Shown here: piece by piece, positions 23,601 to 58,546 of the stretch
Numbering within the stretch: position 1 is the stretch's first letter
Layout: each line of letters starts with the position of its first letter
Notes under the pieces: model-generated
Databases searched by the model: none
Told to the model about the DNA's origin: nothing
Seen by the model: only the letters and a program-made list of their open reading frames with translations
Program-made: the position numbers and the translations under genes
Assembly: GCA_031213475.1 (NCBI GenBank)
Contig: JARUPZ010000010.1
Coordinates: 11,579,917-11,643,916, forward strand
Origin: Nereocystis luetkeana
Lineage: Eukaryota > Sar > Phaeophyceae > Laminariales > Laminariaceae
DNA: 64,000 nucleotides
Reading direction: 5' to 3'

Positions 23601-26600
23601 ACATGCACCCCTTCGGGACTTCCGAGGGAAAAAACGACCACATGACCGAGGTGTCAAACGTTTAGAGTATACCAGGGTATCATAAATCTTCCCGGTAGGA
23701 CTTCATGTCGTTTTCGGCACCGCTCAAAAGCAAACTCAAGGGTCTGACCTCTCGCGTGGAGTCTTCGACGTCTCTCTCTCTCTCCACCTCGCTCTCGTCG
23801 AAGGTCACCATCAGCCGCTTCGTGTGAAGGGCAGACAGCTCACGTACTGCGCCGGAGGGAGTTGGAGAGGGCGGGTGCGGGGCGGGAGGAAGGGAGGAAG
23901 GAAGAAAGGGAGGGGGCGAGGGAGGGGGGAGGAAGGGAGGAAGAAAGGGAGGGAGGGACGTCCAGAAGCGGTGGCACGCCATAGCAGGCAGCGGTGATCA
24001 ACGGCAACATATCAGTTTCTGCGAACAAAACCAAGCGAGCCAACGGTACGCAAAAATCGGTCCCACCTTGACAGTACCGCCGTTTCAACCCAACCGCAAA
24101 CCACTCCACCCGTGAGCCCTCAGGTAGAGAGCCGTTACCATCCGACAGAAAAGCAAGAAAAGAAATCGCCTCAAAAGGCTGCGTGGGTTTTCATTATGAC
24201 GGCAAAAGGGGATCAGCTGCTGCAGCAGCAGCGAGTCAAGCCATGCGCCAAAACATAAAACAAGAGAAAAAAATGACAAAATAATCAGAAAAAAACAGAT
24301 TAGGGTCGGACGCAGACATGGAGCGCCTCAAGTGTCAAGTGACACGCTTCAGCTGTCCTTCGCGGACAGGCTTTAAGTTGGGGCTAGGGTTGGGGTTTAC
24401 AGTCAGGTATAGTTAAACCCTTGTCACTTGAAGCTGGGCCAAGTCATATACTGCATGGCTTGATCGGGAGCCGAACCGAGCGGAGTCGAACGGAATGGAT
24501 TCGAATCGGATGAAATCGAGCCGAACGGAATCGATTCTAACCGGAATCAAACCGTATCGAACCAAACCGAACTGATCGAACTGCACCGAATCGAGCCAGA
24601 CCGAACTGATTCAACCGAATCGAACCGAGCCGAACCGAACCGATTCGAACCGAGCCAAACCGAACAGATTCAACCGAACCGAACCGAACCGAACCGAACC
24701 GAACCGAACCGAACCGAAGGGTACAGTAAACTCACGTTTGAGCTGTATGAGACGGACATCTTCTTCGACGGCGTCCACCTTATCAACCCACAATGGTGGC
24801 AGCTGCTGCCTCGTCACTGCCCAGTTCGTGCTTGCCCCCGCATCCTGCGCCCGAGAAGATACAATACAAACAGACAAAAACGCCGCGCAAGGTGGAATGA
24901 GGCCAGTCACAAGCTATAAATTCATGTTCACCACTGCAAAACGCGATATCACCCCAGGGCAGTCACCAACCTCGATCCATTCAACGAGCAGTACGTAGTA
25001 AAAGGTGCTCGTAGAGTTATATAACTGGTATAATGTTTTAGGAATACACTACACCACTCTGTCCGTAAATATGAAGAACTTTTGTATCGAATACGAGTAC
25101 CGAAATGCTCCCTATATTTCGAGACAGAGTGGTATACCGTCTGCTCCGTGCCACGGTATCTACGGGTAGCAGCATTTTTTTTTCTGAGGTACATCTCCCC
25201 CCTTTTACCTTAGGCCCTTTTGGACACCCAAATTGCGATCAAAAAGAAAAAAAACTGAGCAATGCGTTTTTTTGGGCAACCGTGAAGGGGCACATCAGTG
25301 AGCAAGCACCCAACAGCACGTACGGGTAAGTAAGCTGGTTGAAACTCGGGCACCATATTGTAGAATACCATCCGCCAATCACGAGGTGGCCGATGCCGTA
25401 ACAGTCAGTTTTTTTTTATCGTCACTCCCCCTCCCCCTCGATTCCCAAGAGCTCTATACTCCATCCACCCAGCAACCGTCCTTGAGGACTACAGCAGTAG
25501 TGTAAGCTCATGCACGAGCATGATATTAGCTCGTGTATAAGCACTTTATTGCCTCATGTATTAGCATGATATTCTTCGCGGGGGACCATGGGAAGTAGGA
25601 CCAGATATTGCGAGTAAAAATAGGTAAAAATATACCGGTAGGTTTTCCATGTATACCATAGGTGCTATTTACTATGGTCCCCCGTAATAGTGTAAGCATG
25701 ATGTACCAGTACACAATCATCAAAAGGGCTTGCATAGAAAAAAATGCAATACGTACGCAGCGGATGCACATATTTAACGTCTGGACAGCTCCGTCAGTGA
25801 GAAACGTTCGGGTTTATCCCTTGTAGGACCGCAGTCCCGTTTTCGAGACAAACTACTTGGAATTGGTGTGGGTTGCCCCCAAAAAGGGACTGCAGTTCGC
25901 CCTAGAAGCGTGAAAAACTACATACAACCCCTAATTGCAAACCCTACACGGCTCGTTTCGGGGATAACTAAATGACTTGGAAACAGAGTCGGACTGTATT
26001 TTTCAGCATACACAGCAGTGCAGTAACAAAAGGGTTAATTTTAGTACGCTACACTTCTGTGGGGAGGAGCGCGGCTTCCTCAGGGAAAATCTTGCTCTGC
26101 CAAAAAAAAAAACGCAGGGCGTGTAGACCGTTCCGCTCTCGCGTCTATACCCACCCACCCACCCGACGTTCCTTCCGAAGGAGAGCCATACGGTGGGCCA
26201 CTGCTTCGCACGCCGAAGTGAACCGCGTCAGGCCATTTCTCAATACTTCTTAACAAGGAGCCTTGGGAAGCAGCCGTAGGCCGTTCGCTGTGGCGGGTCA
26301 AGCAGTGGTCCACCCCACGGCTCTTCGTCGAAGGGCACCTCGAGTGGGTACAGACGAGAGATTGGGACGGTCTACTCCCCGATCTTTTTTGGACGGAGAA
26401 ATATTTCCCCGCGGAAGCTCCACCTGTCCCACCCACGGCCAGTCCCGTCGTCGACGCCAAATGTGAGCACGGACTTAGGTTCGACTTGAGGACTGCAACA
26501 GTTTGTTATTTGTATCCGTACGTAGCGGTGGATACGCGCCGGGGCTTTGGGATCCAGACTCGACGACGAGTCGGAAGGACGATACGTGAGTGAGCAGATG

Positions 26601-36262: not shown

Positions 36263-36639
36263 CGCACAATCGGCGTCTCCACTCCGCCAATCCCTGCCCC
36301 CCAGGACGACCCTCCACCTCCCAAAACACGCGTTAAGCGGCGAAGAAACCCTCTAAGCCACCCTAGCCCTGTCTTGGGGTGCTTAGCGTTGGTGATTCGC
36401 TGTTATTTAGCGAAAGAACTCCCACCTTCTGCTACGAAAGAAACGCGGGAGGAGAGAACCGAGGGTGATGTCCTGGATTTCCAAAAGGTTTCACGGCGTT
36501 ATTACTGCCTGCAAATTCGTACCGAGAAATCACGTATCATTCAACGGACGAACAATCGACCGCCCCTCACTGCTGCACCCCCACGCTCCTGGAGCGGGCG
36601 CCTAACAGAAGAGGAGCAGGAAGATAGGAGGCGGTAGAA
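36263..36639. promoter_or_regulatory. Divergent promoter of the SNARE and MDC1-like genes
   Basis: Only 377 bp separate the two start codons, so both promoters and 5' UTRs must fit here. The region is GC-richer than its surroundings and almost free of the regional transposons. A CCAAT sequence occurs (CGCCAATCC, ~36283) and no clear TATA box was seen. The initiation context of the + gene is GTAGAAATGA. Confidence 0.55.
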
Positions 36640-39600
36640 ATGACGCAACACATGGGCATGATGGACTTCAGTGATGAAGAGGAGAAGGATGACGAGGAGG
36701 TTGTGGGACACCTCTATCTGTTGCCTCCTCTCAACAGGACGTTAGGTTGGACCATCAAGGAGTTTAAGAACGGTGAGCGACGAGAGAGGGGATAGCTCGA
36801 AGACGACGCACAACTCACAGGCAGGTGTAAGCCGTCCTCCTGTCTACAATCATCTTCGCGTGGGAATAAGCTGCTATGGATAGGCAACCCCTCCGGTCGT
36901 CTTGTCTGGCAAGACCAAACCGACCTAATTTTGTTTCGGCTTTTGAATTCTCGAGCGGCACGACTGCTATGTACTCCTCTGTTGGTGACAATGATTCGCC
37001 AGGCATGAGGGGTAGCCAGGCTGGTAGACGCTCCGTCTCAATGAGCGAGCGACTGCTGTGCGTACCCATATAATATATGGTACCTGGTACCTGGTACTTG
37101 GTACGATTCACGCTGCAGTATCAATCAGATTCGCGTCGTGCATCAGCAGTCAGCACTTACTACCAGGGCCGTGCATGGCACAGCAGAGAGAGAGAGAGCG
37201 AGCACCGCTTTGCCACGTTGGTCACCATATTTGTACCATTCTGTCCGAATATGTAAGAATCGTCTGGGTGTTTATATCAATGATGAAACGGTATTATATT
37301 TTCGAACAGAGCGGCATACCGCTATTAGTAACTGCTGCATAGAGTACTCATTCAGGTACCTGGTACGCGCACGAGTACAGTACCTCATACATACCCTGGT
37401 ATGTCATATCGTTAAAGCGCGTCCCTGGTACTAAAACAGCTAAAGCAGTACCAGGTACTCGTATACATGGCACTATTAATACTATTAATAGTGGATATAC
37501 AACTCTAGGCAAGCTTGAACTTGGGGAAAATTTCCTTTCCAATCTTCAATTGCCAACCGTCGCAGCGACCAACGCCCCAACTCTAAAACGCCTCGCCAGC
37601 AAAGATGGGGAGTGGGGAGTGAGGGCGTGTCACCCAAAAATGTGAACAGCGGTCACGGCGTACGGCCGCAGCGTTCACAGAAAAACCTTCCGGTGCGTAC
37701 GTAATACCTGGTACCTGGTAGGTAATACCTGGTACTACTGCTGTACCTGGTATCGGTTGTTACGTACCACCACTCTATGTAGGCGTCCATACAATATAAG
37801 GACCGACCGCCTCGTCTGCATGTCTGCATATTACTTGTGGCATCTATGCGGCCTTGCTATTTGAGGCCAGAGTGGTTGGTATTGCCAAGGATCGATCACT
37901 TTTTTTTGTTCAACGAACGACATTGCCGTCACTTTTTTTCAAGACGATAAACGGCCGTCACTCCCCATTTTTCTCTGCCCGCCAGCAACTTCCAAATTCC
38001 CTGTATTTGCTTCACCCAGCAAGAGGGTAAATGCATACCAGGTATGACATGCCCTATATGCCTTCGGCGACCGTGGAAATTAGTTGATCTAGCAATTTGC
38101 TTGGGTTAATTTCTGTGGGTGTTGCAACTTGGCAGGAGAGACGACGGTGGGTCGCAACGACGATGAAGACATAGTCATCTCGGACCCGAGCGTTTCCGGT
38201 CGACACGCCTCCATCGACATCGTCGAACTCCCGGGGGCCGGGGGCAAGCGTGTAACGCTCAAGGTAACTTCTATCCATCGGCTCGTCCTTTACATTTCCT
38301 CCGGCGTGTTTGTGAGATATATATGAAGTATTCGCACCGGAGAGGCAGCGACGGAAACCGTAGCAATTCTTACCACGACGGTAAATGAAAGGCAAGATAG
38401 GAGAGATTCCTGGCCTCGTACGAGTATCCCAGGCGTAGGCACGAGGTGTACCACAAACAGCAGAGTGCTACGAGTATGCCTGGTACGTTGATAACACATC
38501 GCACGTCGCACCCTTGTACCTGTCAGACAAGCAGCAGCATACCTGGTATATATAGAACGGGCGACAAAGGTTGGTGTGTTCCTTTGGGTTTGCTCTACGT
38601 GCTTACTGCATCTGCCACAGAGTTAGAGTAGCACAGATATGATACGATGTCGGTTCCATCAGCTCCATGACTATCAATGAAAGGAAACAGAACACAACTG
38701 AGAGTCTTTCGCCGTCAGCCGAATATAGCTTGAGATACCTGGTACCAGGTATGTCTTACCTGGTATATGCTGCCAACGCCCCCTCCCCCTTCCGCCTTTG
38801 ATTGGTCTATGACAAAGATGTCAGGCGACAGCACTTTTACCCCTTGACAGACAGCAACTTTGCCTTGGCATGCCTTCATCGACACCAAACTACTATTAAT
38901 AGGTTTAAGTGTGGAACAACCGGCCGTGAACCGTTGGCAGCGCACGTTTTGCCTTGCTTGGCATGTCTCCTGGTATCTTTGGTCTATGGAACCCGAACCC
39001 TCGGTGCGATGTTGCGATGTCATCATGTTCAGACGCATGCTTGAAAGGGGGTAGGGTACGAGTAGCGCCTAGACTTTCTGAGGCTGCTCACCTGAAAAGC
39101 TCTTTGTCTGACACAAAAACTGAGTTACTTGTGATATACACTCCACCCCAACGAGCAATCCCGTAGGCTATGATAGGTGTATCACGAAACACATTGTCAA
39201 GCACTAGTGAGATCCCAGTGACATTGGGATACCGGGTAGTTACTCAGTTAAGGAGCCCAGTCAGTTAAACATATTTGCCTCATAAGGCTACATAGTGCTA
39301 CCCCTATCGTACCACACGCCTCTTTACATACCGTGTTGCCACGTTGCGATGATAACGCGATCAGGACCTCCGCAGCACCAACGGCACCTACATCATTGAC
39401 GCCGAAACGGGGTCCAAGACTCGCCTCGCACCGAAGAAGGCCACGATGATACCCGAGGAGGGCTGCCTTGTTCACTTCGGCGGCGCCATCTGCAAGGTGC
39501 GCGTTCCTCGCGAGCACCTCAAACCGGAAACGTTTTTGCGACTTACATGGCCGCACGAAGCTGGGCCATGATCTATCCGGCCCTCCTAAATTGACCGACG

Positions 39601-42600
39601 GCACGTATGTTGTGTGTACGTAAGCAGTGTGGTGAGCTTAACCCTTTTAGGACTGCAGCCCTGTTTTCGGGGACGAACCACCTAGATTTTTTCTAGTCCC
39701 CTAAACAGGACTGTAGTCCTACACGAACAAGGGGTAGGCTTTATTTTTACCAAACCGCCGGGGTTTTCAAGAGATAAAAAATCAACCGGCGTCTTATCTT
39801 GGACTGCAATAGCCATGGCAGTGAGGTATATACATAACCTGGTAGACTGGTATGATATTTGACGTAGAGTATCTACCACGTATCATTCACCACTTTTTTT
39901 TCAGGAGGCGATGTACACGTGCTGCCATTAGCAGTAGAGCAGTATTCCGGCTCGGTTTTCTTAGTGCCACGCTGGAATTTTCAGGTGTCACTTATTTTTG
40001 TGGACCTTTCATTCTTTCGTAAATTGTATTTTCCAGGAATTTTCTGTGGCAGCTGTGGAGAAGGTGAGGGTCGAGGGGGAGTGTTTTGTGTACGGCATGA
40101 CATACATCCTTGAAAATTCTGTGATAAAATATCGGGTAGGAGGCGGTCAGTCACAATAGGAGACTGGTCTTGCTGGGCACGTCAAGGCCTAGTTTGACCT
40201 GCTGATATATAATATTACAAGTGTTTTAGTGTGGGGGCGGTCAGTCAAGGCGCCAAACCGCCGTCTCGTACGTACCAGGTAGCATTTTTGTACCTGCCCC
40301 TTTTTCCTGTGCTGTCAAGTTTACCTAAAACACGGCCGTTACGCGTTGGTTTTCCCTTGGTTTTATGTGAATTGTGCAACAATCGCATACCAGGGTAGTT
40401 GACCCCCAAATGGGCCAAATTTGCAGCGGGCTTTTTTCAAATCCGCCTCAGTACTTTAAAAGCTATACCGCGCATACCTGGTACTATATTAGATATATGC
40501 GAGAAAACTCGGGAAAAAGGTCAATTTGACCGAAAATAGTCCCGAGCTTGTTGGGTCAAAGCCCACCGCCCGTGCTGTATATAGGGGCGCGTCGTCTGCC
40601 ACTGGTGTACGATTTGTTGCTATTGTGCATGCAGGACAGCGTCATGTCCTTTCTTTGTTTTGATGATAACTTCAATTTTTTGGAAGGTAACGATTTATAT
40701 AACACGGCCCAGAGAACAGCAGTGCGCCTTGGCTTTGTGAAAACAAGAGTTTGCTAGACGGACCGCACTATCGAATGCTCTTTTTTTTATCATCACTTTT
40801 ACTTTCCAGCCTAACTCGTCGAAGGTTTTACCCTCAACGAGCTTCTGGACAAGCCGCGGTCACAGGTGTCTAACCTTCCCCCCCCCGGGTACGTGCCTTC
40901 ATTTTTTGTCGCGCATAGGGTTCAGCATTCCCACTGCTCGTCGATTTTCATCGAATGTAGCTAACTCACGCTCTCGCGCTTTCCGCTTATAATTTTTTCA
41001 TGCAAGAAAAAGGCCCTACGAGCATGCAATCGGTGAGACTTGAACCCACGAAATTGATATTGATAGGCACGCGGACCACCTACCAAGCCACCGGAGACGC
41101 TGGCGCTCTACAGTATAAAAACAATGCAACTCCATATATTTTTTTTTTCAACTTTTTGGGCATTTTGGACTGCGCGGCTACGAGTTCTCCAACCTTTTCC
41201 TGTTCGCCTCGTTATAGTGTAAAACAAAGTCACAAAAGTTGGCGGCAACTTCGGCGTTTTGGTCTTCCAACAAGAAGTGGGATTTTAGTATTCCAAAAAT
41301 CGTTTCCGTCATGACAGGTGGCGATGGGCCCTCCCGCGCGGGACCTATGCGACTTGGACGTACGCGATGGGACTAACATTTATGACATGGACACCCAGCT
41401 GCCCGGAGGGGATTTGGACGATATCGATCAGGGGCAGGGTGGCGCCGCGGCTGGGGGTAGGGATGAGGGGGGGGGGACCGAGCCGCTCGCCACGGTGGAC
41501 GAAGCGGGGACCAAGCCGGACGTTGAACATGTGGCTGGAGTTGCGGACGTTGAAGTTACAGTTGAACCTGCGGTTGAACTTACGGTTGAACCTGCGGTTG
41601 AACTTGTAGAAATTAATCCTGAACCCGTAGTGGAATCTCCGGTTGAAGTTGCAGAACGATCGATTGACCTTGCGGCGGAACCTGCGGTTAGTGGTGCAGC
41701 TGAAGTTGCGACTGAGCCTGCCGTTGAAGCTACCGTTGAAGCTACCGTTGAAGCCACTGTTGAAGCTACCGTTGCACCTACCGTGACACCTACCGTTGAC
41801 CCTGCTGGGGTTGAACCTGCCGATAAACCTGCGGTGAAGCCTGTGGCCGAGTGCGAGAGCGGTGCTTGCTTTGAAGGAGTTGTGGAGGGAGCGGAGGATG
41901 CGGGGGCTAGATGTCGAGACGACGCGGCGGCGGCGGCGGCGGCGGCGGTTGAAGAGAAGGAGGGGAGGGTGAACCCTGAGGATTCGGGGGAGCCTCGGGG
42001 CGAGACTCTGCGCGAACAGGTGGGGGAGAACGGAGGTGCCGCTGACGGCGAAGATAAGCGGGAGGCGCTCGTACACGAGGAGGCGTTGTTGGGAGCGGTA
42101 GGTGAGGACGGCGGAGAGAAACCGCACGTGCGGTTCGAAGGCGTTCGTTTCGAGGGTGTGGGTTTGAGCGACGGCGGAGGTGCTGGCGTGGACGCGAAAG
42201 AGGTGGAAGGGGAGGAGGGGGGGAAAGAGGAGGAGGAGGAGAAGCATGACGAGGAAGAGGAGGACGGGGGGTACGAGCCTCCTACTCAGGCCATGGTGTA
42301 CGAGCTCGACGACAGCAGCGACGATGAGCAGGAGGTGGTAAGCGCCAACAAGGGGGCAGACCAAGACGGTGCCGGAGTTCCGACCGGTCCTACTTCTCCC
42401 TCTCCGTCTTCTACCGATGCTGCCATTGCTGCGGCAGCAGGTGACACCGCCACTGCCGCCGCCGCCGGCGACACCGCTACTGCTGTCGGTGCTGCTGCTA
42501 ATTCTGTCTCCGCGGGGCAAAGCGCTGGCCGCCGCGCGGACAACGGGGATGAGACTGCAGACGAGGGTGACACCGCCTCCCTTTTCAACAAGGAGGGCGA

Positions 42601-45600
42601 CGATGATGAGGGTACTGATACTGACGAGGACGAGGCGGAAGTAACGATCGGCCACGAGGACGGCGAGAAGGACAATGATACGGCGGACGAGGGGGAAACT
42701 GCTCTCCTCTTCAACAACGACAAGGAGGACACCGACGGGGAAGACGACAACGTCAAGGACTACATCAACGCCAGCGCCAACGACGAGGGCAATGCTGCGA
42801 GGGCGGTCGCCACCGCGGACACAAGCGCCGCAGCAGGGTCGGACCGCGACGGAGCAACCTCTAACAGCGCCTTGTCTCAAGGATTCACCCCCACGCCGAT
42901 GACGCCTTCCACTGCTCCGGAGTACCTCGCGCGCTCCAGCCAGGCGGCATCTCCAGGAAACGCGTCCGAGGTGTCTACGCTGAGGCAGGAGTCGCCGAGG
43001 ACTACCCCGAGGCGTGCTGGGAGGGAAGAACGCGATGGGTTGGTGGGGACGCCGGAGAGAGTCGCCGACCGGGGGGCTGAAGGGGAAGGAAGAAGAGGAG
43101 GAGGAGAGGTAGGAGAAGGAGGGTCGGGGGGGGGGGAAGAAGGAAGAGGAAGGCGAGGGGAGGAAGGGGGAGGAGGAAGAGGAGGAGAGGGGGAAGAAGG
43201 AGGGCAAAGACTTTTCGCGGAGTCACCGGGGAGGGGGTACGCCGCCGCTGGCGATGACGATGATGATGATAGCGACGAAGGGAGCGATGCATCGGGGGCG
43301 CTCATCCCCGCGCAAGATCTCGACGGCTTCGGGGACGAGGACGATCCACTGCTAGTAGGCTCGTCTCCAGACGACAAGGAACTGTCAGCTGTTGTCGCGG
43401 GTGCAGCAGAAGCTCCTCGTGTTGCGTGCGGTGAAGGACCCGTTGTCGGTGGCAGCGGCAGCGGCAGCGGTAGGGGTAGCGGTAACGGTAACGGCGAGGG
43501 TAGCCGCAGCGTTACAGTGGCACCGGCGGGGGCAGCGGCGTCAGCGGCAGCCGCAGCTGGCGACTCGGGCTCAGACACAGACGCCACCGAGGTGGACACA
43601 GATGATGGCCCCACCGGCGACGCCCGGCCGACCTCCCCGAACCCCAACAGTGCCAACGCTTCCGCCGCAGAAACCGCGCAGGACGGTGCGGCGGCGGCCG
43701 CGCCGTCGTCACGGTCACCGGATCGTAAAACTGGGCGTCACCTGGCCTCCCGCAAAGCGGAGGTTTCGGGTGACGAGCCTGCGGCGCTAGATGAGGCTCG
43801 CTCGCCCGGCGGGTCCGTACTGCTGAGAACGAGCACAGAGGACGCGATGCAGGCGATCGCGAGGGATCAGCAGAGGGCGGACGCCGCCAGGCTTGCTGCG
43901 CTTGCGGCGCGAGATGGGGCGGGGGGCTTTTCTTACGGACCGGAGGAAGAGGATGAGGAGGAGGATGAGGAGGAGGAGGAGGAGAAGAAGGAGGAGGAAT
44001 GGGAGGGGAAGGGGGAGGGGAGGGGACTGGAGAAGTGGGGGAGGGGGGAGGAAAAGGGGGGCGAGCAGAGTGGGACTGAAGCAGGAAACTTTGCAACAGA
44101 AGCTGAGACCCAGGCCTTTCCGATGCAAGTGGACGAGGACGAAAGGGAGGAGGAAGAGATGGAAGAGGATCCAGAGACGTGCATAGACGGAACAGAGATA
44201 CTGGAAGAAGGGGACTGCTCCCCCTTGCGGGAGAGCGATGCCGGCGCTTCGTACGCCGTCGGGGACCCTGCCGCCGTCGACCCCTCTCCGGGGCCTGGCT
44301 CGCCCCGCTCTCAGGCGGGGGCCGGCGACGCTTCGCCCGCGGACAAGGTGGCAGATGCCACCAAGAGCGGCAACAGGGTGCCGGATGGGGCGTTTGCGGG
44401 AGGGGGTGCGGGGACATCATCCTCGTCGTCAGCGGCAGCGGCGGCGACAAGGTTAAGGGCGACGGCGACGATGGCGGTGGGACGCCTCGGGCTTACAGAA
44501 AGTGGAGATTCTGAGGGCGACGATGGGGAGAGCGCGGTCGAAAATGAAGACGGAGGTGGGGTGGCGGTCGGTGAAGGTAAGCCGGCGGGGGCTGGCGGGG
44601 AGGGAGGCGGGGGTGGCCATGACGATGATGACGAGGAGGAACCTAAGGAGGAGGGGCAGGGGGAGGAGGATGAGGGGGGTGAGGAGGCGAGGGGAGAGGA
44701 GGAAAAGGGACAGGGGGTTTTGGGAGGGGAGGAGAAAGGGAGGGGAGGGGAGAAGGAGGACATGGAAAAAGAACAAGGGGGAGACCAGGAGGAGCGGAAG
44801 GAGGGGGGGGAGCAGGGGCGGCAGGATGTTAGGAACGCCGATCGACGTGATCGAACTCCCGCCCCGACATCGCCGAGGGTGAGCGGTCGACGAAGGGTAA
44901 GGCCCAAGGCGTTCGACGAAGATGATGAAACTGAACAACACAAAAAACAAGCAAAAGAGAAGCCGGTGGTTGCTGATGCTGTCGCGCCGCCAACCAAGGG
45001 CAGACGGAAGACGAGGGGGACGACGCACGAACCGGCAGCCGCCGCCGCCGCCGCCGCCGCCGCCGAGCAACCACAAGGTCCACCGGAAGCACCGGAAACA
45101 CCGGAGCCCAGGCGCACACGAGGAAGGGCCGCGAGGGGAAGCGAGGTGCGCCCGACGGCTCCTGCCCCGTCTCCAGCTAGACGCGGGCGAGGTGGTGGTA
45201 AAAAATCGGCAACAGATTTCGTTGAAACAACGGGGAATCGGCCCGTTCGATCCGGAAAACGCCTGCGGAGCCAAGTGTCCCCCGAAACGGTGCGGGGGTC
45301 ACAGAAGGAGGGGGCGGAAGAAGGGGAGGATTCTGAGGCCGGGGTTAACGTGGGCGAGAGGTCGCCGCCGCCTGAACGCGTGGTGAAGCGTGGGAGGGTA
45401 TCTCGCTCCGTCTCCACAGCCAACGCCGCTGTTGAGGCTGCCGTTTCTCCTAGAAGGAGGGGGAGGGGGCAAGCCGAAAAGGACGCCGTAGTTGATTCGC
45501 GCGTCGCTTCGAGGGCGTCTAGAGGGAGGGGACGGGGGCGGGGCCATCCCCGGCAGGAGGCGGGGACTGCGGAGGATCCGAGTGAAGATGTAAGCGCCGA

Positions 45601-48600
45601 GGGTAAGGGTAAAGGGCGCGGCAAGGCGGCGGTCGGTCGCAAGAGGCGGAGAGCTGACGAGGAGGGGGAGGAGGACGAGGGGGAAGGGGAGGGAAAAGGT
45701 GGGGGGGGAGTCGAGAAGGTTGCGACGGCTGGTCCCGGGAGGGGAAAGCGAGGGGTAGGTGTCACCCTCGGTAAGGGCAAGGGTAAGGGTAAGGGATCGA
45801 GAAAAGGAAAAAAGGAGGAAGATGACGCCTCTTTGCCGACAGCGATGGAGGAGGAGGAAGAGGAGGAGGCGATGGATGATGACCCTGCCGAGGACAGCGA
45901 GGCTGTACCCTCGTCGCCACGAGCGAGCGGCCGACGGAGAAAGGCGGCCGAGGACAAAAAGAAAGGACAGGCGGAGCCGGGGAGGGGGCGCGCCGCTACG
46001 CCGTCGGCGGAAGACGAAGGTTTGCCGCAGACTCCCCCGAGAGCGAGCGGGAGGGCCAAGGGTAGCTCATCTCCCCGGTCGCTGGGAAGGGATTTGCCGG
46101 CTGCCTCATCCACCGCGATGGGTACGGTGGGTCGTACCGCGAGCGCGGGGGGTACAAGCGGTGGCAGCGACGGTGGCAGCAGCAGCAAAGGCGACGTCAA
46201 GGTGAGGGAGCGCCGTGCTGCGAAGAAGAAGCAGGCGCGTACCGCGTGGTATGTGTGTGTGTGCTTGTTTTTTGGCAGATTGAAAGCTGAGGGAGGGCTG
46301 TACAAGGCAGACCTTGGGCCTCTCGCCAATTGGTTGAAATGCCCTTGGCTTTACGTAGACCTGACCCCGTACTACCCCAACCCCGACTACCTGGAATTTT
46401 ATGGAAATGACGATGTAATGAGGCGGTAATGTGGACTATCAGCCATTTTTGTCGAGGATGGACCAAGTCGTAAACACTGCCGACGTACCTACTGTCCATA
46501 GCGGCAGGTTAGGATCTAGATGATCTGAAGATGATAGAATCTACCTTTAGATAATCTGAAGATTATGTATAGATTATCTGAGGATGATCTGTGGATGATC
46601 TGTCCGACGTGCGAAACGCTACGAACTGGCCACAGCCAAGCCACTGCCAGACTGGTGGATTGGCTGAAGCTGGTCCACGTCGTGAACACTGTCGTACCTG
46701 GTACGATCACTCTACCCTATTCACTTCCGTGGGTGGAGATATGAAGGAAAGAAATATACGAAGAAAAAAGAAAAAAAAAACAGCTGTGAGACCTATGACG
46801 ACAATGGAAACGCAAGTCTGAAAGTTTTCTTTCAAAAGTGTTTGCTATCAAAGAATCAGCCGGAAATATTTTCGCACCGCCGCTATGGGAAAAAAGGGAT
46901 TTTTTTGTTTTGTTTATTTTCTCTTTTTCTTTTTATAAAAGGCTGCAGCCGCCGCTAGTTGTTTTTTCTCGTTGCAAAGTGTCAACACGCTGATAAAAAT
47001 CAGCTCGTGCGACGATGGACCTTCGATCTCTACATGGACTCAGCCCACGGTCAACCCGCTTGGTGTCGGGCAAGGCCAGCGAGCATAGATGACGGCCTCG
47101 AAGGTGTCAGGTGGATCCATGGTCTACGGGGCGAGAGCTTGCCGGCGGCGTCCTAAGCTCGTCCTACACTCTTCTCCAAAGCCTGAAAAAAATATAGATA
47201 TGCCAATCTAGACGAATCGTTTTTTTTTGCCATCTGCTTCGTGCACACCAGCGGCCAATTGCTATTCGTCATACGCCGATCCAGCGCCCGCCACATATCA
47301 CTGGCCATTCTGTGAACAGGGTGACCCTAGGGTGGGTCGGGGCCCCTATGACGAGCGCACTCTGTCGAGAATTCATGAAGCAATCGTTGTTTTTGTCGAT
47401 CGATATCTGTCGCCTACTCGTGATCTCGCCGCTTCGAACCAAACAATTGCCTGAGTTTTTATGAAGCCGATCTTGGCCCAACATCGGCCCCGGAATTGTT
47501 TTCTCCGGGGTTACCCGAAAGTTTGGAAGTTTCGGTTTGAAGAAACGGGCTCAGAGCAAGCTGTACCTGAACATTTCTGCCGAGCGTCTTTAGAATTCAA
47601 ACGTTTTATGGAAAATTTCCGTTACCATAGGCATAGATAGGTCCGAGATAGATCGTAATATTTCGTCGAAACTCATCTTTGCAAGCTGTGTGGTACTATT
47701 AATAGAGATACTACGAATAGTGATGCTTCGAACGCGCGTACTACAATACGCACGGGTTTTGTTCAAGCTCTTGAAGTATAGATATATATATATGCCTCGC
47801 ATTAAGGTTCATTCTTATCGGAGAGAGTTTTTTCCTTAATATACAAAGTTTGGAAATAATTGGAGATGTGTGTCAATATACGGAGGTGTTCTGTCACTAT
47901 TCGTGAAATTCTCCAGAACCAAAAATATCAAGTTCGTTAACATTCCAACATTTGGAAAAAAAAACAGGAAAATATGGAAGATTGAAAAATTGCTCGAAAC
48001 AAATGTCGAAAAATTGGAGAAAAAGCTCCCCAATAAGAATGACCCTAAAATGTCGAAAAATTGGAGAAAAAGCTCCCCGATAAGAATGACCCTAAGTGGG
48101 GTTTCTGGCTGAAACAATACACAACAGTATATATCAGCTGTGAGACCGATTTTTCCTCGAAACTCGACTTTACAAGCTTGGTGTGACATGTCGGGATATG
48201 TAGCTCCTCATAGCCGCCCCGTGTCCTGCCACTCGGCACAAATTCTTGTTTTTTTGGAGATACCGCCTGCTTGGCTACACCGACGACTAAGAGGTGTCTT
48301 GGACGCGCCCCAAATGATCGGTCTCTCGGCCGATAAATGTTACAGGGCTTTTTTTTGTTCGTTTTGCAACTTGGAAGCTTGGGGTGCTCGGCTGCTCTAA
48401 CACTCAGAGATGGTACGGTATCAGACGCTTTGAAGAGACCGCGGTTTGACCGCTTGGCTGACCGCCCCCCTCTGTACGCCGAAACTGGCATATTAAGACC
48501 AAAGAGAGGCCTTGACGCGCCCTTAATGACAGGTCTCCTACGAGTATATACCTGGTACCTGGTATGGCGTATTTGCTGACTAACACTGTACCTGGTCTAT

Positions 48601-51600
48601 ATATATTTTTGTTTGTTTGTTTCATTGAACAGGTTTGCTTCACCAACGTGAAGGTCACCGCTAAGGAACGAACGTGCATAAAGAAGCTGGGAGTGTCGGA
48701 GGTACGATTCGCACTGCTTGCAGCACCGGTCACCTGCTTGACCTACGGCGTGGGTGGGTGGGAGTGTACTCATTATCATGAATGGCCGTAGTCGTATGGC
48801 CATAGACCCTCGCATCCCTACAATGCCGGGATGGAGCACGTCGAGTTCACCGACCAGGCGGCGGGGGTATCCTGACTGCTGCTGTCGTTGTCTTTTTTGT
48901 CGAGCACTGGAAAACTGAACGATTGTTGTGGCGTTGTGACTGGTGCCAGGAGATAGTTATCCCCGCACCCCATTTTCGCCTCGGGTCGTGCCGGCCTTTG
49001 TCCAGCTTCGAAAAAAAAAGTATCAACGTAGTTGATTTTAAATGCTAACGTCAACCCTTCTGCAGCAGACTGCACTCCCATTGGTTTGGGGGCAAACTAC
49101 TTGGAATTTGAGTGCTGTGTCCCCAAAACGAGACAGCAGTTTGCCCTACAAGAAATCAATGCTAACGTTAACCCTAACCCGACCGCCTGGGAAATTTATC
49201 GGAATACGTAACGATGAATTTGTGTGGGCCCTTAACCATTTGTCATTGTGTTGAACCTGGGCCAAGTCATAAACGCTATACACAAGGTTTCCCTCCGGAG
49301 GCGTTCAGACATGGGTTGTCGCGAACTAAAAATCCGATGCCGTCTTGTGCATCTTGACCCCTTTAGAGCCGCAGTCCCGTTTTGGGGTTAAAGTACTTGA
49401 AATTTGACTGGGTTGTCCCCAAAACGGGACTGCGGCTCTAAAGGGGCAGAAAGGCCCATCAGCCGTTACATGCTGGTGTCTAAACAGCCCGAAAAACGAA
49501 AGGCACGACGACGAGCGAAAGGAAAATCGGTACATGTATGTACGGCGGTGACTGTGACTTAGGGGGGATTGCTGACGTCGTTTTTTTGGAGTACTGGGTC
49601 ACCCGACCCAAGTCCCCCGCCCCCCCCGTCCACAGCTGGTTGTCGAGTTAGATCACTTGTGCGAGGTAAAGAACCTTTACTCCGCACAATTGAGAAAGAT
49701 CTTATCACGTAGTGTTCAAGGTAAGGCACGCAAGAGGCAGTTACATAGTACTCCCATTGCTGTCTCTGGAAATGCCTACACCGGAAATTAAATCAACTCA
49801 TTGAAGCTGTCGTCCATATGCAAGTCCGCCTCAAAAGCGGTTCTTAGTAGGATGCAGCTCACCCTTCATGCGACTCGCCGGACACCTCACGGCGCTTCGC
49901 GCTTGATGCAAGCAATGTCTGCCTGGTCCGCGAAAACCCGACATGCTCCGTCCCGGCATTGTACGGATGCGAGGGTCTATGGTCATACGACTTCGGCCAT
50001 GCATGAGATCGAGTACATCTCTCCTATCGAGTACACCCCCCCCCCCCCCCCCCCCAATATATAGCTTTTATGTGCGGCTTGTTTTTTTTTAAAACCAGTT
50101 TTCCACGTTAAAATTGTTTATCAGTGAGTGCTATTAATAGCTGAAGTGAACCCCTATGGGTTGTGGCCCAGTGACCACATATTGTTTTATCGACTCTGCT
50201 CTGTACTCCCGTGCACGTGTTCTTCGAGACGCTTGCCGGAAAAACGGGGGGGGAGGGCGGGGTAGAAGGTTGCGAGTAGCGGTGGAAGGAGCCCTCCTTC
50301 CAGTGCAGTCGGTACCTTTTACGCATCGGCCAGATCAGATAGATCATACGACCATTTCATAATGTATACCTGGTACCTGGTATTTTTTTAGGGGAAATAC
50401 ATCCCTGAAATATATTTATGAAAAAATCTATACCATCTGCTGTGAGATCAAGGATTTCGTCGAAAGTCATCTTTGCGAGCTGCGTGTATTTCTCCGCTCT
50501 CGGGCGTACATTTTTTTGTGTGATATCCCAGTACATGTATTGCTGTTGTCTATTGTTGTCGCTGTTGTTGTTGCCGTTGTTGTTGCTCTCACATTAACTC
50601 AGCGCCACAATGCAGTTTTGTGGTCACAGGACAGGCTTAAGAAACTCTGGAGTAGAACATTACGTTAGGAGGGAAGAATATTGATGCGCCCAAGCCTTGG
50701 CCACAGCAGTGTCCGTAGGCCGTTCCCCTGACGAATCTCTTTGCGTTTGTGCTGACCGTGCGCGTCCGAAGAGATACGATCGAAAGCAGAGCAAACGCCC
50801 CCAAATATACGTAGTCTATGCACAGGGTCATAATGTGGAGGGCGCTCTAGAACCTACACACTCCGTAGGAGAAGCGATCGAAGTATCACACCATCCTTGG
50901 TAAAATATGTTTTTTCAAGGTTTTTTCGATCTCCCAGCTCAGTTTCGTTTTTTCAAATGAATAATGTGTTTGAATCGCAGTATACTGCACCTGGTATATT
51001 TTTTACAAACATACATAATATGCACACCCGGAAGCCAAACGCCTCTTCTTGTGAGAAACCCCAGCATTTTCGCACGACAAAATCGCTGTCGCCGTTTTGT
51101 ACCCCCAAAGGTGGAGAGCGTGCTGGAGGCAACGCATTTGGTAGCGGGCGGAAGCGGGGTGCCGCTGAAGCGTACACCCAAGCTCCTCGCGGGGCTGGGC
51201 CGCTGCAGGTTCGTGCTGGACGTGGAGTGGCTGTATCAGAGCGCGAAAGAGGGGAAGCTGCTGGACGGATGGGAGTACGTGCTTTGCGATGTGGAGGTAT
51301 GAACGCCGTGTTTGTGTTGTGTGTGTGTTTGTGTTTTCACGGTTTGTGCGCCTTTTATGTGTGTGTTAGGTGGTGGTGGTGGTGTTGATGGTGTTGTTTT
51401 TTTATTTGGTCCCTATTGTTGTTTTTGGTATTGCTATTGTTGAGGTGGTGGTGGTCTTGGTGATGGTGTTGCTCTTGATCTGGTCCGTATTGTTGTTCTT
51501 GGCATTGCTATTGTTGCTGTGGTGGTGATGATGTTGTGCTTGTACTTGCTGTTTTGCGTCTTGAGGGTGTGTATATATTCTGCCGTTTGTTCTACGATTT

Positions 51601-54600
51601 TACCGCTCTTATTGCGCTTTGCATAGTGTGCGTTTTGTATCTTCACGTGTCTGTATGCTGTTTGTTGCTGACATTACACTTCGTTGGTGACGGCATTTTT
51701 TCGCTCTCCACAGGTCCTCTGTAAGCGCCCCCGTTGGCCCTTGTTTTTTTTTTTCTTGTTTGGGTTCTTTTTGTGTCCCCTTATCCCCTTGTCGAAACGC
51801 GGACTCAGGCGGAAAAGCGTTGGGATTTCAACATGCGCATGTCGCTTGGCTGGAGACCCGACGCCGGGCTTCTCGCGGGGCTGTCAGTTCACGTTGATCC
51901 AGCCGTGGTGAGTTACCCTCGCCCGTACCGTGATCATTTTCCTTTCACCCCTACCCTCGCCCTTGCTCTTACCCGAACCCTTCAGTTTACCCTACACGTT
52001 TAGTCTCGCCCTTGCTCGTGCTTCGTTCCTTACCCTATCATTATCGTTACCCGTAATGTTGCCCTTGCCTTTGTCCTATCCCGGACCCTTACCCTCACCC
52101 GTACATACACCCGCACCATTGCCCGTACCATTACTCGAACCTTTACACGTATCCCTACCCTAGCCATTGTCCATACCCGTACCCTCCCCCTACCCGTATA
52201 TTTGATCTCAGCCCTAACCTTACTCGTACCCCGTACCCGTACCCTTACCTTTACCCTTACCCGTACATATATCCACACCCTTGCCCGTATCGTTACCCTG
52301 GCCTTTTCCCGTACCCTCACCCTAGCCAATTGTCCCTACCCTTATCTGTGCCGTTTCCCGCACCCGTACCGCTCACCTTGGCCTTAGCCTTACCCGTACC
52401 GCTCACCTTGGCCTTAGCCTTACCCGTACCCTTACCCGTACCCTTCCTTACCCGTACCCTTACCCGTACCGGTGAACAACCCCCTGGGGGCTAGACATAT
52501 AACGACTACCGGTAATGTTGTATCACAAAAATGACATCACCAGTATATCGGGCAGTTCCTCCCATTGGCTTTTTATGCCGTTAGTCAGAGCGTCTCTATC
52601 CAATGCAAGAAATTCCGCCTGAGAAACGATTTTTAGTAGGATGCAGCTCACGCTTCATGCGACTCGCCGAAAACCTCGCGTTTCGCTTTGCGCTTGGTGC
52701 AAGAAAGCAATGTCTGCCTGGCCCGTGAAACCCCGGCGTGCTCCGTCCCGGCACTGTAGGGATACTGGGGTCTACGGTCATACGACTACGGCCATACATG
52801 ACATGAGTACGCCCCCTCCATCATCACCCCCCTTACCCCCGTGACATGACACGATGCTGTGATAGGCGTGGCATGTTCCGCGCCCGCATTGTAAGCGGTA
52901 GCAAAAGGAGGGGTAGTGGCATTCGTAGTAATACGGAGGGCCATAGTAAATAGGACCAAATAGTGTTGGTAAAAAAAGCGAAACATATAGGTTTTTGCAT
53001 GTACCGTAGGTCCTATTTAATATGGTCCCGCGTAATGGTACTGTAGTATTACGGGGGACAATAGTAAATAGTAAAAAGGACCTAATATTGTTAGTAAAAA
53101 TAGTTTAACATATAGTTTTTTGTGTGTACAGTAGGTCCTATTTAATATGGTCCTCCGTGATAGTAGTGAACGTCCCGGGTGATCCGAATTCCTGCCCGTT
53201 TGCGGCGAACAAGTTTTTCCCTGAGCGCGACAGCACCAAGAAACTGAAGGAAGCTCGTCTATTAATAGATGACGCAGACACATGCAGACGGGCTTCGTCT
53301 GCTTGTTGGTGCTGTCGCGCTCCGGGCGAAAATTGTTTGTGGTGAAGGGGCAGGAGTTCGGATCACCCTGCGCGTTCACTGCTACGACTGACACTGCTAC
53401 TCCCCCTACTGCTCGTGCTCCTCGTCAAGGGGACTGTGGACCCTCTGGAAAGTAATGCCATTTTACGTTTCGGGCTGACACTCGTATGAACCGACTTATT
53501 TCGCGATGACACTAATATATGTAGAACTACATACTTAAATCACAACCCCTGAGCGTGCTCGGTTGGTGCATCCCTGGCCTCTCAGAGCTCCCACTTCCAA
53601 ACCGCCTCCTTTCATTACTTGCCGGACCTGTCCAGCAGTCCTTTGTTTTCTCGGTCCTTTCTTCCTTTTTTCTTCTTTCGTTTTGTGTGCGTGCGTGTTC
53701 TCCGAGCACGGCATCGCGGGAGGACCCGGCACCGTCGCGGGTGTCACCGGGTGCTGACGGGTAGAGGGGGGGTTGCAAGGAGCGCGGTCGCCGCTTTCGT
53801 GCCTAGGCGTCGCGTGTGCCTCGAGACACGAGAGATGCATGAACGGGCTTTGTCTGGCTTCGATTTATGATTGTTGATAGAGTATGTACGAGTTTATAAA
53901 GGTCGTTCGGGAGGGCAAGAGAATATACAAGCGGTGCTTATTTTTGCGACCACGCTGAAGTTGAAAGAGGGAGGTGTGCAGTTTGAACACCAACGTTATC
54001 GAGCTGGCGAACGACGGCCACGGTGAGCACCGGGCTTCACACGGGGCGGGCGACGGGGCTGATTGTGGCAGAGAGTGATAAAAGCTTTGCCCGGACCGAA
54101 TCGGTAGCGAAGTGGTCGCGAGAGGGGCGGGCGGCGTACGAGGCTGTGAGAGAGAAGCTATTATGTGCGATTTTTTCTTTTCTTCTTTACGACCGGGTGT
54201 AAGGTGTTCAATCAGGCAGAAAAATATTACACGAGAGGGGACGGGGATTTTTTTTCCTTTCCGAATTTTCGGTTTCATTTTGATTGTTTTTGCTGCTGTG
54301 CCGTGCTGTGCTTTCGCTTTCTTCGTACATACAGTACAGACATACCAGGTAGAGCATATCGAAAGAAGAAAATAAGTACAGACAGCAGTAGTACCCTACC
54401 TGGGGTGTATGTACGTATGTACGACATCCGCGACGCGAAGCGTATATGTGGCATCCAAGCTGACGTCGGAGCTGTTTTTTCCTGAAGCATGGCGGCGGGA
54501 CTCTTGGCATTATCAAGTCGCCGGTTTGCAGTTACGATCCTTGAAAACACTAAACTCAATCGTGGACCTCTGTTCGCTTCGCATAATTTGATGTACTTTT

Positions 54601-56008
54601 GTCCTTCCTGAGCGAGCGTAGCGGGCGGCGCAGGCCGCCCGCGGAGCGAAGCGCCTTGTATATACATATATATTATATGTATACCTGGTACCTGGTATAT
54701 TATACCAGGTATGTATGATGTACTTCGAAGTATGTATATATATACATATATTTTATGTGTATATATTGACGAGGCACATTTCGCGCTGAGCCCGTAATGA
54801 CGCAAAAGGGCCCACCCGGGACGATGCTGTGATGGCGCTGTGATGACGCGCGACAGGCCGGCACGAAGGGAATGGGGTGCCCTCCTCTCGACGAGATGAA
54901 GATGGTCGTCGTTTCCGCCGGCGGCCGCTGGTTGCCGCAAATTCCGAAGGTTCGTGTGCCGGAGATTTTTCCACCCCAGTCGGGTCGAATGTTCGCAGAT
55001 TATTTACGTACGTACGCAGTAGAGGGCTGTGTGTGCCTTGGCCCAGGTTGGAACCCAAATGGTTGATTTTCTGTTCGGCCTTCAAAGCGTAGACCGTTAC
55101 GTACGTGTAGCTCCGACCGCCTGGAAGTTTCTGGGAAAATGGTTTGTCCCTGATAGTGAGGAATTACGCGTACTTCTGTAGGTAGGGGTAACACCTATTG
55201 ATATGACATATGTAGTAACAGGTAACATTTCTGAGCCTCCTCACGTGAGGAGGTCCATGTTATAAACAAGTCATTAGTACTATACCTGGTAATGATTTTC
55301 ACAGAGGGTGATAGGGCGGAAGTTCGTGGGTAGAGCTCGCTGCAACTTAGAAAAAAACGCCTGCAAATTGAACGTCGTTGCCTTTTACTCCGTTGGTTCT
55401 CGGACTCTCCTCCCTCACCCCTTCCATGCCCCCCGTCTGACCTTCTTGTAAAGAAAATTCAGATATGTAGAGAAGTCGCCCCTCCCCTCCCCTCCTCCCC
55501 CTCCTCTTCCCACCATCTCTCACTGCCACCCCCTTCCTTTTCCATCCACCCTCGTTTCCAGACGCCCCCTGTTCCGTCTCGAAATGGATGCGTGGTGTCT
55601 CGAAAGGGATGCATGGTTGATATTCAAATGACGAAGGCAAGCAGCAAATGAGTACCCCCCCTCCCCCTCCAACTCTTTTCCCACTCCCACTCCCTCCCTC
55701 CCTCCCCCCCACCCATTACGCGTCCTCCCCCTATTCAGCGGGGCGGCCCCGACGCATCGTCTCTCCTCACGATATCCCACCCGGATGCCCTCAAGGCCAC
55801 AGGAGCGAAGGGAACCAAATCACGCGCAGCAGCCGCGGCGGGCCGTAAAGGCAAGGCCTATCTCCCGGAGATGCTTTTCTTGTGCATCTTGAGGCAGCGC
55901 ATGTCGTGGCCCGCCAGTTTGGCTGTTGACGGTGGGGGCGGAGTTGGGAGAGGGGGGGGCGGCAGCGAAGACAAGAAGAAGCCGGCGAAGCGTCGGAGGG
56001 GGGCTTGA
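36640..56008 (+). CDS. MDC1-like DNA-damage mediator: FHA + acidic centre + tandem BRCT, 10 exons
   Basis: Exons: 36640-36772, 38136-38263, 39365-39496, 40037-40063, 41318-46201, 48633-48701, 51111-51296, 51809-51907, 54857-54949, 55739-56008; 2006 residues, phases consistent. MDC1 binds phosphorylated H2A.X at DNA breaks and recruits checkpoint and repair factors in the nucleus. FHA (~22-140): GR (Arg51), SVSGRHA (Ser65, His68) and DLRSTNGTY (Asn93), the phosphothreonine-binding set. Centre (141-1768): acidic, Ala/Glu/Gly-rich; DTQLP (T166), PTQAM (T463), SDTD (S892), ETQAFP (T1071, a TQxF motif), then basic SPRVSGRRR/SPRASGRRR repeats and RGRGRGRG. BRCT1 (1769-1853): VCFTNV and RTPK (R1812, K1815), aligning with the human Thr/Arg/Lys pocket (T1898, R1933, K1936). 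BRCT2 (1854-2006): EKRWDFNMRMSL, SAGGRWLPQIP and CILRQRMSW, then the basic tail KKKPAKRRRGA. Uncertain: exon 4 may extend to 40135; exon 9 may start at 54869 or 54896; the donor at 46202 was chosen for phase. Confidence 0.88.
40866..41110 (-). mobile_element. Diverged SINE copy in MDC1-like intron 4
   Basis: It shares the body (ACGTGCCTTCATTTTT, CTCGTCGATTTTCATCGAAT) with the other SINEs. Its minus-strand head carries box B GGTTCAAGTC in a tRNA-like context. A headless fragment of the same family lies at 62035-62165. Confidence 0.55.
41540..41830 (+). repeat. Coding tandem repeats, VEPAVE/VEATVE
   Basis: Within the giant exon, short units such as GTTGAACCTGCGGTTGAACT and GTTGAAGCTACC encode VEPAVE and VEATVE runs. 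These are in-frame expansions typical of disordered linkers. GGA-rich runs encoding Glu/Gly tracts follow at 43080-43200, 43940-44050 and 44640-44820. Confidence 0.8.
46500..46620. mobile_element. GATC-rich TIR element family, partial copy
   Basis: Repeats of AGATGATCTGAAGATGAT end in GATCTGTCCGACGTGCGAAACG. The fullest copy is 10323-10601, bounded by CACACGTCGGACAGAT and its inverse (ATGTCCGATGTGTG). Other copies: ~96-490, ~13400-13705, ~15735-15955, ~18745-18995. Several hold the internal strings GAGCTAGATCATACAGATC and TACAGATCCAACCCGGGAAA. The class is unknown; the ends suggest a small DNA transposon. Confidence 0.55.
46787..47640. mobile_element. Second copy of the 830-bp TIR element
   Basis: This is homologous over its whole length to 33136-33965, with decayed ends (ACCTATGACGACAATGG at the left, CCATAGGCATAG at the right). 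It lies in the MDC1-like gene intron 5. Confidence 0.65.
51915..52480. repeat. Degenerate telomere-like CCCTTA/CCCGTA hexamer array in MDC1-like intron 8
   Basis: More than 500 bp of CCCTTACCCGTACC-type hexamers begins only a few bases after the donor of exon 8 (51908). The units are imperfect and mixed with CCCTCGCCCTTGCTC variants. Open frames here are by-products of the repeat. Confidence 0.7.
53166..53379. repeat. Foldback inverted repeat with coding-like arms (~95 bp each)
   Basis: The left arm (53166-53260) and the inverse complement of the right arm (53286-53379) are about 75-80% identical. Read inward, both encode the same peptide core: GDPNSCPFAANKFFPERDST and GDPNSCPFTTNNFRPERDST. 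Differences fall largely at third codon positions. The loop is ~25 bp. It lies in the MDC1-like gene intron 8, directly after a MITE A. Confidence 0.7.
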
Positions 56009-58109: not shown

Positions 58110-58216
58110 TTGCCCTTAACATTACCATTACCCGACCCGGCCAGACCTGACCCCGCGAAATTTGACACGACCCGTGAACAGCCCTGCTAGTATAACAATA
58201 GTATATTTATAGTATA

Positions 58217-58326
58217 TTATTACGGGGGACCATAGTTAATAGGACCTATGGTATACATCAAAACCTATATGTTTAACCATTTTTACCAACAATATTTGGT
58301 CCTATTAACTATGGTCCCCCGTAATA
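58217..58326. mobile_element. MITE family A (~110 bp, TTACGGGGGACC termini), best copy
   Basis: The ends TATTACGGGGGACCATAGTT and AACTATGGTCCCCCGTAATA are near-perfect inverse complements. A TA flank suggests a Tc1/mariner-type target. The interior holds ACCTATGGTATACA and CAATATTTGGTCCTAT. Other copies: 1513-1622, 7222-7338, 20575-20690, 25576-25689, 28284-28392, 52930-53037, 53047-53162, 59039-59147, 60549-60657, 60851-60960. Two lie back to back at 52930-53162. Confidence 0.85.
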
Positions 58327-58546
58327 GTAGTACATGGTTCACTCGTGCTGACGGGTGTAGTTATTGTGTACCTCTGGTACCTCCTATCATATAATACTAA
58401 TATGTGACAAGAGGGAGGGACACACGCAGGTTTTTGTTCGCGTGCGGGTGTACCTCGAGGCGCCTATGGTAAGTGAGCGGCCGTGCGGACCGGACCGACT
58501 GGTTGGTGGCGCGAATCAAAACGAAAAAAGGGAGATATGTTATAAG

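Follow-up and report, generated by a model that had tools for sequence, protein, structure and literature searches.

The 64,000-nucleotide stretch of the Nereocystis luetkeana genome analysed here (the window; C10:11579917-11643916 in a 465-Mb assembly of 1987 contigs) encodes on its forward strand, at 36640-56008, what is probably the brown-algal orthologue of MDC1, a chromatin scaffold at DNA breaks. The locus had been picked out in an earlier reading of the letters without database searches (the sequence-only reading). Its coordinates for the gene proved exact: in our splice model nine exons, separated by eight GT-AG introns, join into a single frame with no inner stops, of 1997 or 1984 codons plus the stop, depending on the acceptor chosen for exon 8. 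The predicted protein has the architecture that had been proposed for it, an FHA at the N-terminus and a tandem BRCT at the C-terminus with about 1600 acidic residues between them, as borne out by Pfam and structure matches and by a centre of 1628 residues. Residue numbers below refer to the 1997-residue form, and publications are cited by PubMed Central (PMC) accession, each for part of its text.

Homology of the FHA and the tandem BRCT

In the spliced N-terminal piece, which the splice model links to the remainder, Pfam reported an FHA at 3.4e-14 (residues 47-109). In spliced C-terminal sequence the first BRCT (BRCT1) matched RTT107_BRCT_5 at 4.2e-6, just at the cut-off of 27 bits for that family, and the second (BRCT2) matched BRCT_2 at 5.4e-5 with 23.9 bits, short of the 27.3 bits set for that family. 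Scanning unspliced frames had detected half of the FHA, and had missed the BRCTs until their exons were spliced. When the BRCT pair was compared with solved structures, human MDC1 ranked first (4e-16), followed by PTIP (1.3e-6) and Mdb1 (8.5e-6); using the longer form of exon 8 and trimming the query ends gave 6e-17, 1.8e-8 and 1.1e-5, and Brc1 followed at 0.54. MDC1 was ahead of PTIP by 28-31 bits. BLASTP aligned the pair to human MDC1 with 36% identity over 148 residues, and in the 120 columns that a partial PTIP stretch also covers identity was 38% to MDC1 and 31% to PTIP; bootstrapping these columns placed the algal sequence nearer to MDC1 in 94% of replicates when scored by BLOSUM and in 93% when scored by identity. 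The FHA is 31% identical to that of human MDC1 over 84 residues (E value 7e-9 for the single pair).

The phosphoserine pocket is kept as well. The human MDC1 contacts T1898, R1933, K1936 and E2063, named in PMC4013092 and PMC11014961, align with T1763, R1803, K1806 and E1952 of the algal protein, and so the Thr of VCFT and the R-x-x-K of RTPK, which the sequence-only reading had singled out, are both present and in register with the human pocket.

Several observations weigh against the assignment to MDC1. Human Gly1899 and Arg1932 are replaced by Asn and Lys in the algal protein. For the FHA, a mycobacterial FHA, Dun1 and GarA slightly outscored MDC1 in the structure set, and this domain alone is not MDC1-specific. 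The match between human MDC1 and PTIP reaches 80 bits, compared with 62-65 bits between MDC1 and the algal protein, and in the 120 shared columns MDC1 is as close to PTIP (36%, BLOSUM 211) as it is to the algal protein (38%, 204). Given this mutual closeness the three-sequence comparison is suggestive and not a tree, and the choice of MDC1 over PTIP draws in addition on the presence of an FHA and on a modelled protein in which no further BRCT was found.

These points leave a small place for a protein of PTIP/Brc1 type, or another tandem-BRCT protein, that gained its FHA independently and resembles MDC1 by convergence. PTIP is the second match and as close to MDC1 as the algal protein is, Pfam labels BRCT1 as RTT107_BRCT_5, and plant BCP4 illustrates that tandem-BRCT readers can carry unrelated N-termini (PMC11014961). 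However, convergence does not readily explain the lead of MDC1 over PTIP, and a Pfam scan of the modelled protein in three pieces found no BRCT beyond the C-terminal pair. PTIP, Brc1 and Rtt107 have additional N-terminal BRCTs and are not known to have an FHA, a layout that differs from the two BRCT-type Pfam matches plus FHA of the modelled protein. Scans of unspliced sequence missed even the real BRCT exons and so add little on extra BRCTs. The combination of FHA and tandem BRCT is moreover reported for every one of the 119 metazoan MDC1s surveyed in PMC11014961, and for two amoebozoan proteins (PMC4013092). No apparent PTIP-type relative was seen in the genome, where a search with RTT107_BRCT_5 gave only four matches, all below cut-off (best E value 0.53), and one with the spliced tandem BRCT (E values up to 1) returned only its own five exons, the sensitivity for split exons being low. 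We therefore regard convergence as unlikely. Exon 6 had 6 pattern-matching stretches in viral contigs and 186 in bacterial/archaeal contigs, none of which was confirmed as a relative, as expected because the gene is eukaryotic.

Gene structure and the case for a single gene

The gene starts at the ATG at 36640, with an in-frame stop upstream at 36625. Exon 1 (36640-36772), which ends at a GT donor in an open spliced frame, encodes the MTQ N-terminus, an acidic stretch and the first FHA strand. The FHA core (VGR...SVSGRHAS) lies in exon 2 (38136-38263), which contains the whole stretch matched by Pfam FHA before splicing (8.9e-8), and the second half (DLRSTNGTY...) in exon 3 (39365-39496), as indicated by the spliced frame and Pfam FHA. 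Exon 4 (41318-46201) is one open frame with a guanine-plus-cytosine (GC) content of 0.649 and encodes the acidic low-complexity centre. BRCT1 begins in exon 5 (48633-48701) with VCFT and the pocket Thr1763. Its core, with KRTPK (Arg1803, Lys1806) and DVEWLYQS, is in exon 6 (51111-51296), placed by the splice model, structure match and alignment, and its end, with the inter-BRCT linker (AEKRWDFNMRMSL...), is in exon 7 (51809-51907), placed by the splice model and structure match. Exon 8 opens BRCT2 (SAGGRWLPQIP) and ends at 54949; it starts at 54857 (acceptor CAG) or 54896 (acceptor GAG), both in frame, and the two forms scored 65.3 bits (54857, query ends trimmed) and 62.5 bits (54896) against human MDC1. 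Exon 9 (55739-56008) completes BRCT2 with YLPEMLF, including Glu1952, and adds a basic tail and the stop, in agreement with the splice model and the alignment. All nine exons are on the forward strand.

All exon junctions except the first are in phase 0. The GC content is 0.61-0.66 in seven of the nine exons, above that of every intron (0.447-0.517), and 0.50 and 0.52 in exons 1 and 5; at third positions it is 0.64-0.84 over the nine exons. With introns of 512-2988 bp the gene is not compact, which corrects the 'compact-exon protist' of the sequence-only reading. Splicing exon 4 to exon 5 (K|VCFT) recreates the KVxFT motif that human MDC1 has as KVLFT, which ties the acidic centre to the BRCTs.

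The FHA exons are attached to this centre by reading frame, splice sites and architecture, and here an alternative of two adjacent genes has to be weighed, a small FHA protein (36640-39571) followed by an acidic protein with the tandem BRCT, whose start would be the ATG at 41324. That ATG lies just past the exon 4 acceptor, and reading through exon 3 to a stop at 39569-39571 would yield a clean FHA-only protein of 155 residues, with FHA scores that are not worse (18.8 versus 18.5 bits to MDC1), so that the sequence would permit two genes. Against this, the donor of exon 3 and the acceptor of exon 4 are GT-AG and in phase 0, and the order of the parts and the acidic N-terminus agree with animal MDC1. 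If FHAs are spread evenly, the probability that the 5 kb upstream hold one by chance on this strand is about 7e-5 (13 matches above cut-off, this one included, among 23 scored in 465 Mb), or 1.2e-4 using all 23. Two genes thus seem slightly less probable still than convergence, and the FHA and BRCT exons very likely form one gene.

That an animal MDC1 gene was recently transferred to the alga, or that the assembly is contaminated, is highly improbable: human MDC1 is indeed the best match, though only solved structures were compared and few lineages stood among the matches, but BRCT identity to it is just 34-36%, the large introns share repeat families with other parts of the window, an S41 peptidase exon nearby has the algal D1 protease as its best match, and the host contig spans 12.4 Mb.

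An SQDY-tailed H2A as candidate target

An H2A with an SQ[E/D]Y/F tail, which the sequence-only reading had named as the histone to look for, is encoded in the genome, although its signatures point to H2A.O rather than to plain H2A.X. The exon at C15:1493651-1494001 (...LEYLTAEVLELAGNA...VLLPKKSVTGKAKSSASQDY*) carries both the alpha-2 signature LEYLTAEVLELAGNA and an SQDY tail. About 0.6 kb upstream lies a K/G-rich N-tail piece, MSGKAGGKGKGGRGDKKSTSK (MSGKAGG...), which a GT donor and a CAG acceptor join in phase to SSKAGLQF. The histone has all three features published for H2A.O, namely the alpha-2 signature, the SQDY tail and the K/G-rich N-tail (PMC12459048), and by these signatures it is more probably brown-algal H2A.O than plain H2A.X, which shares the K/G-rich tail. 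The histone searches returned two H2A matches in each of two and 11 histone matches in another, all of these counts being lower bounds, so that the genome may encode other SQ-tailed H2As. A second H2A exon (L006; C35:4455546-4455743, reverse strand) ends in KKLARKVEEGE without an SQ and is perhaps of H2A.N type.

As described in PMC12459048, H2A.O occurs in brown seaweeds, in Schizocladia and in one red alga and is not orthologous to H2A.X, which is absent from brown seaweeds except Discosporangiales; an earlier paper had named a probable H2A.X in Ectocarpus (PMC7784034). Since most brown seaweeds lack H2A.X and have the SQDY-tailed H2A.O, the algal MDC1 would be expected to read phosphorylated H2A.O. 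The role of H2A.O in brown seaweeds is untested according to PMC12459048, and the algal MDC1 is a concrete candidate reader of its SQDY tail that allows testing whether H2A.O took over damage signalling.

Central motifs and candidate partner genes

The acidic centre consists of 22% Asp plus Glu with a net charge of -177 over its 1628 residues, and no Pfam family matched it. It contains the SDTD and TQxF motifs reported by the sequence-only reading, at positions other than those it gave: SDTD is at residue 883 (43571-43582) and not S892, and TQxF, as TQAF, at residue 1062 (44108-44119) and not T1071. Translation also gives a TDTD at residue 564 (42614-42625; TDTDEDE), in which both Thr have an acid at +3, and a further TQx-hydrophobic site, TQAM, falls at residue 454 (42284-42295, placed by arithmetic from the exon table); all four are on the forward strand. 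The CK2-type character claimed for SDTD holds for its Ser, since S883 has Asp at +3 and fits S-x-x-D, and fails for T885, which has Thr at +3, so that just half of the motif is CK2-type. Of 5000 composition shuffles, 4.9% contained SDTD and 1.5% TQxF; for 3000 dipeptide shuffles the shares were 4.5% and 2.1%. None of the dipeptide shuffles had both motifs, and 4.0% had at least two TQx-hydrophobic sites, as the centre does. A further point against the MDC1 assignment is that SDTD and TQxF are single copies and mildly unlikely by chance, and T885 lacks the CK2 acid; they are weak evidence and by themselves no proof of NBS1 or RNF8 docking.

The first residues of the algal protein, MTQ, lead into an acidic stretch, as do the first residues of human MDC1, MEDTQ, of which Thr4 drives FHA-dependent dimer formation. 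Oligomerisation of MDC1 is described as promoted by the FHA in PMC6858307, which cites the dimerisation papers and, in the part consulted, does not name Thr4.

For NBS1 a candidate was found at about C2:14713940 down to 14710020 (reverse strand), where five exon pieces encode an FHA followed by a BRCT. The joined exons best matched human nibrin among solved structures (2e-8; next TOPBP1, 1.4e-3), the FHA reached 3.4e-10 in Pfam with BRCT matches below cut-off, and a Lys is kept in the column of human K160, which we take to be the phosphate-holding lysine of nibrin. Genome searches with NIBRIN_BRCT_II and Mre11_DNA_bind were empty, which would tell against the scheme; as no control match rang either, they say nothing about absence. 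For RNF8, an FHA (8.5e-14) and a RING (7.3e-8) lie within 3 kb in one locus at about C32:5016350 to 5019010 (forward strand). Its exons were joined by eye, with one RING junction bridged by X, and the pieces may form one protein, of RNF8 or CHFR type. A genome search for the FATC ends of PI3K-like kinases gave seven matches at E values up to 1, four of them above cut-off; from their signatures we presume these four to be one ATM-like, one ATR-like and two TOR-like. The suggestion that the whole H2A.X-MDC1-NBS1/RNF8 logic may exist in this lineage thus stands at the level of candidate genes, though not for a plain H2A.X, nor for docking deduced from SDTD and TQxF alone.

In animals the tandem BRCT of MDC1 binds phospho-H2AX, phosphorylated SDTD holds NBS1, and phosphorylated TQxF recruits RNF8 (PMC6858307, PMC11014961). 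By analogy, a PI3K-like kinase of ATM/ATR type would phosphorylate the Ser of the SQDY tail on the H2A.O-type histone, and the C-terminal tandem BRCT would grip the phosphoserine and the free carboxyl end via Thr1763, Arg1803, Lys1806 and Glu1952. The long acidic arm would display phospho-acceptor sites: NBS1 could dock on those of SDTD/TDTD type, and an FHA-RING ligase on those of TQx-hydrophobic type. MDC1 molecules could be linked to one another through the N-terminal FHA and a phosphorylated Thr, for which T2 in the initial MTQ is a candidate, in the manner of Thr4 in human MDC1. Of these inferences the one on histone-tail binding is the safest; docking of NBS1 and of the RING ligase on the arm is plausible, the motifs being weak.

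Neighbouring genes and other observations

Pfam scanning covered part of the window, and two of the scans returned no family. A PDZ piece (3.4e-10; about 490-760) and a Peptidase_S41 piece (6.3e-11; 10639-10749), both on the same strand as the MDC1-like gene, probably belong to one gene for a C-terminal processing peptidase. For the S41 piece (39 residues) the best match was the algal photosystem II D1 protease (2.6e-6), and for the PDZ piece it was DegP-type proteases (3e-10), with the D1 protease lower (4.8e-4); these matches make the presence of a plastid likely, not proven. At about 17.7-23.8 kb on the reverse strand, a SNARE domain (2.8e-6) with pieces such as DLSTIFKELAVLVIDQGTILDRIDFNMEQV (19916-20005) marks a gene that we take to be syntaxin-16/Tlg2-like. 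Interspersed repeat families of about 100-250 bp (D5, D6 and D8; for example 49337-49433, 48748-48847 and 58215-58330) lie partly inside the MDC1 introns, a 20-mer taken from one repeat of the window was absent from the viral and bacterial/archaeal contigs searched, and a tandem array with an 8-bp unit (AGGCAAGC-type) occupies 23305-23624.

Elsewhere in the genome, other FHA genes lie on contigs C20 (L001), C21 (L024/L026) and C18 (L028/L036), and from their motifs presumably resemble NIPP1, SNIP1 and kanadaptin. A weak FHA piece (VSDQRVSSKHCRIY; L037, C19:5074000) presumably resembles checkpoint-kinase FHAs. EsV-1-7 cysteine-rich motifs number at least 150 (150 of the 1710 candidates were scored), and many of them are clustered and lie in long open frames (C1, C13, C14, C25 and C26 are examples); the family is expanded in brown algae (PMC7457493). 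Together with the H2A.O-type histone, these motifs fit the genome of a brown alga or a very close relative.

Evolutionary meaning and comparison with known systems

In the open-licence literature, with subscription papers mostly outside coverage, no report linked MDC1 with Ectocarpus or stramenopiles, and nothing relevant was found on MDC1 and the 'last eukaryotic common ancestor'. A 2024 study infers an ancestral MDC1 defined by the C-terminal tandem BRCT, with other parts separately gained in animals and plants (PMC11014961). The combination of FHA and tandem BRCT had already been noted in amoebae, and the algal gene, as modelled here, extends it to stramenopiles. With a stramenopile case beside the amoebozoan ones, an ancestral FHA plus tandem BRCT followed by later losses is the simpler history, which favours a gain of the FHA earlier than the 2024 scheme implies and suggests that an MDC1-type break alarm may be much older than animals. 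More tentatively, with the chances slightly short of even, the full scaffold (MDC1 with FHA and tandem BRCT, NBS1 with FHA and BRCT, and an FHA-RING ligase) would predate the split of animals and amoebae from the algal lineage, and the MDC1 of plants and of fission yeast would have lost its FHA or let it become blurred; most brown seaweeds would have lost H2A.X, and their reader would have been re-aimed at H2A.O, whose SQDY tail evolved separately.

Among the closest known systems, human MDC1 (PDB 2AZM, 3UOT) shares with the algal protein the N-terminal FHA, the long low-complexity arm, the C-terminal tandem BRCT, the Thr/Arg/Lys/Glu pocket and a TQ near the N-terminus before an acidic stretch. 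It differs in the sequence of its BRCT pair (34-36% identical) and in having repeats where the algal protein has a single SDTD and a single TQxF. PTIP/PAXIP1 (PDB 3SQD) has a related tandem BRCT, the weaker match described above, among multiple BRCTs and is not known to have an FHA. The statement in the sequence-only reading that MDC1 is studied mainly in animals was incomplete, as Mdb1 and two amoebozoan proteins (PMC4013092) and plant BCP4 (PMC11014961) are in print. MDC1 itself is described as having SDTD repeats in vertebrates only and PST repeats in mammals only (PMC11014961). The amoebozoan proteins (Dictyostelium discoideum EAL70982, P. pallidum EFA74881; PMC4013092) have the same two-end architecture outside opisthokonts; they belong to Amoebozoa and not to stramenopiles, and the comparison with the algal protein is one of domain layout. 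Schizosaccharomyces pombe Mdb1 (PDB 7P0J), the third-ranked molecule (1.1e-5), shares the tandem BRCT and reads phospho-H2A, but has 624 residues and no obvious FHA, a diverged FHA-like fold being suspected by the authors of PMC4013092. Arabidopsis BCP3 and BCP4 share the tandem BRCT, and BCP4 reads phospho-H2A.X and has TQx-hydrophobic motifs; in contrast to the algal protein they are described with no FHA and no SDTD, and BCP4 binds NBS1 via another region without need of phosphorylation (PMC11014961). Set beside these systems, the algal gene adds a member to the MDC1 family and does not amount to a new kind of system.

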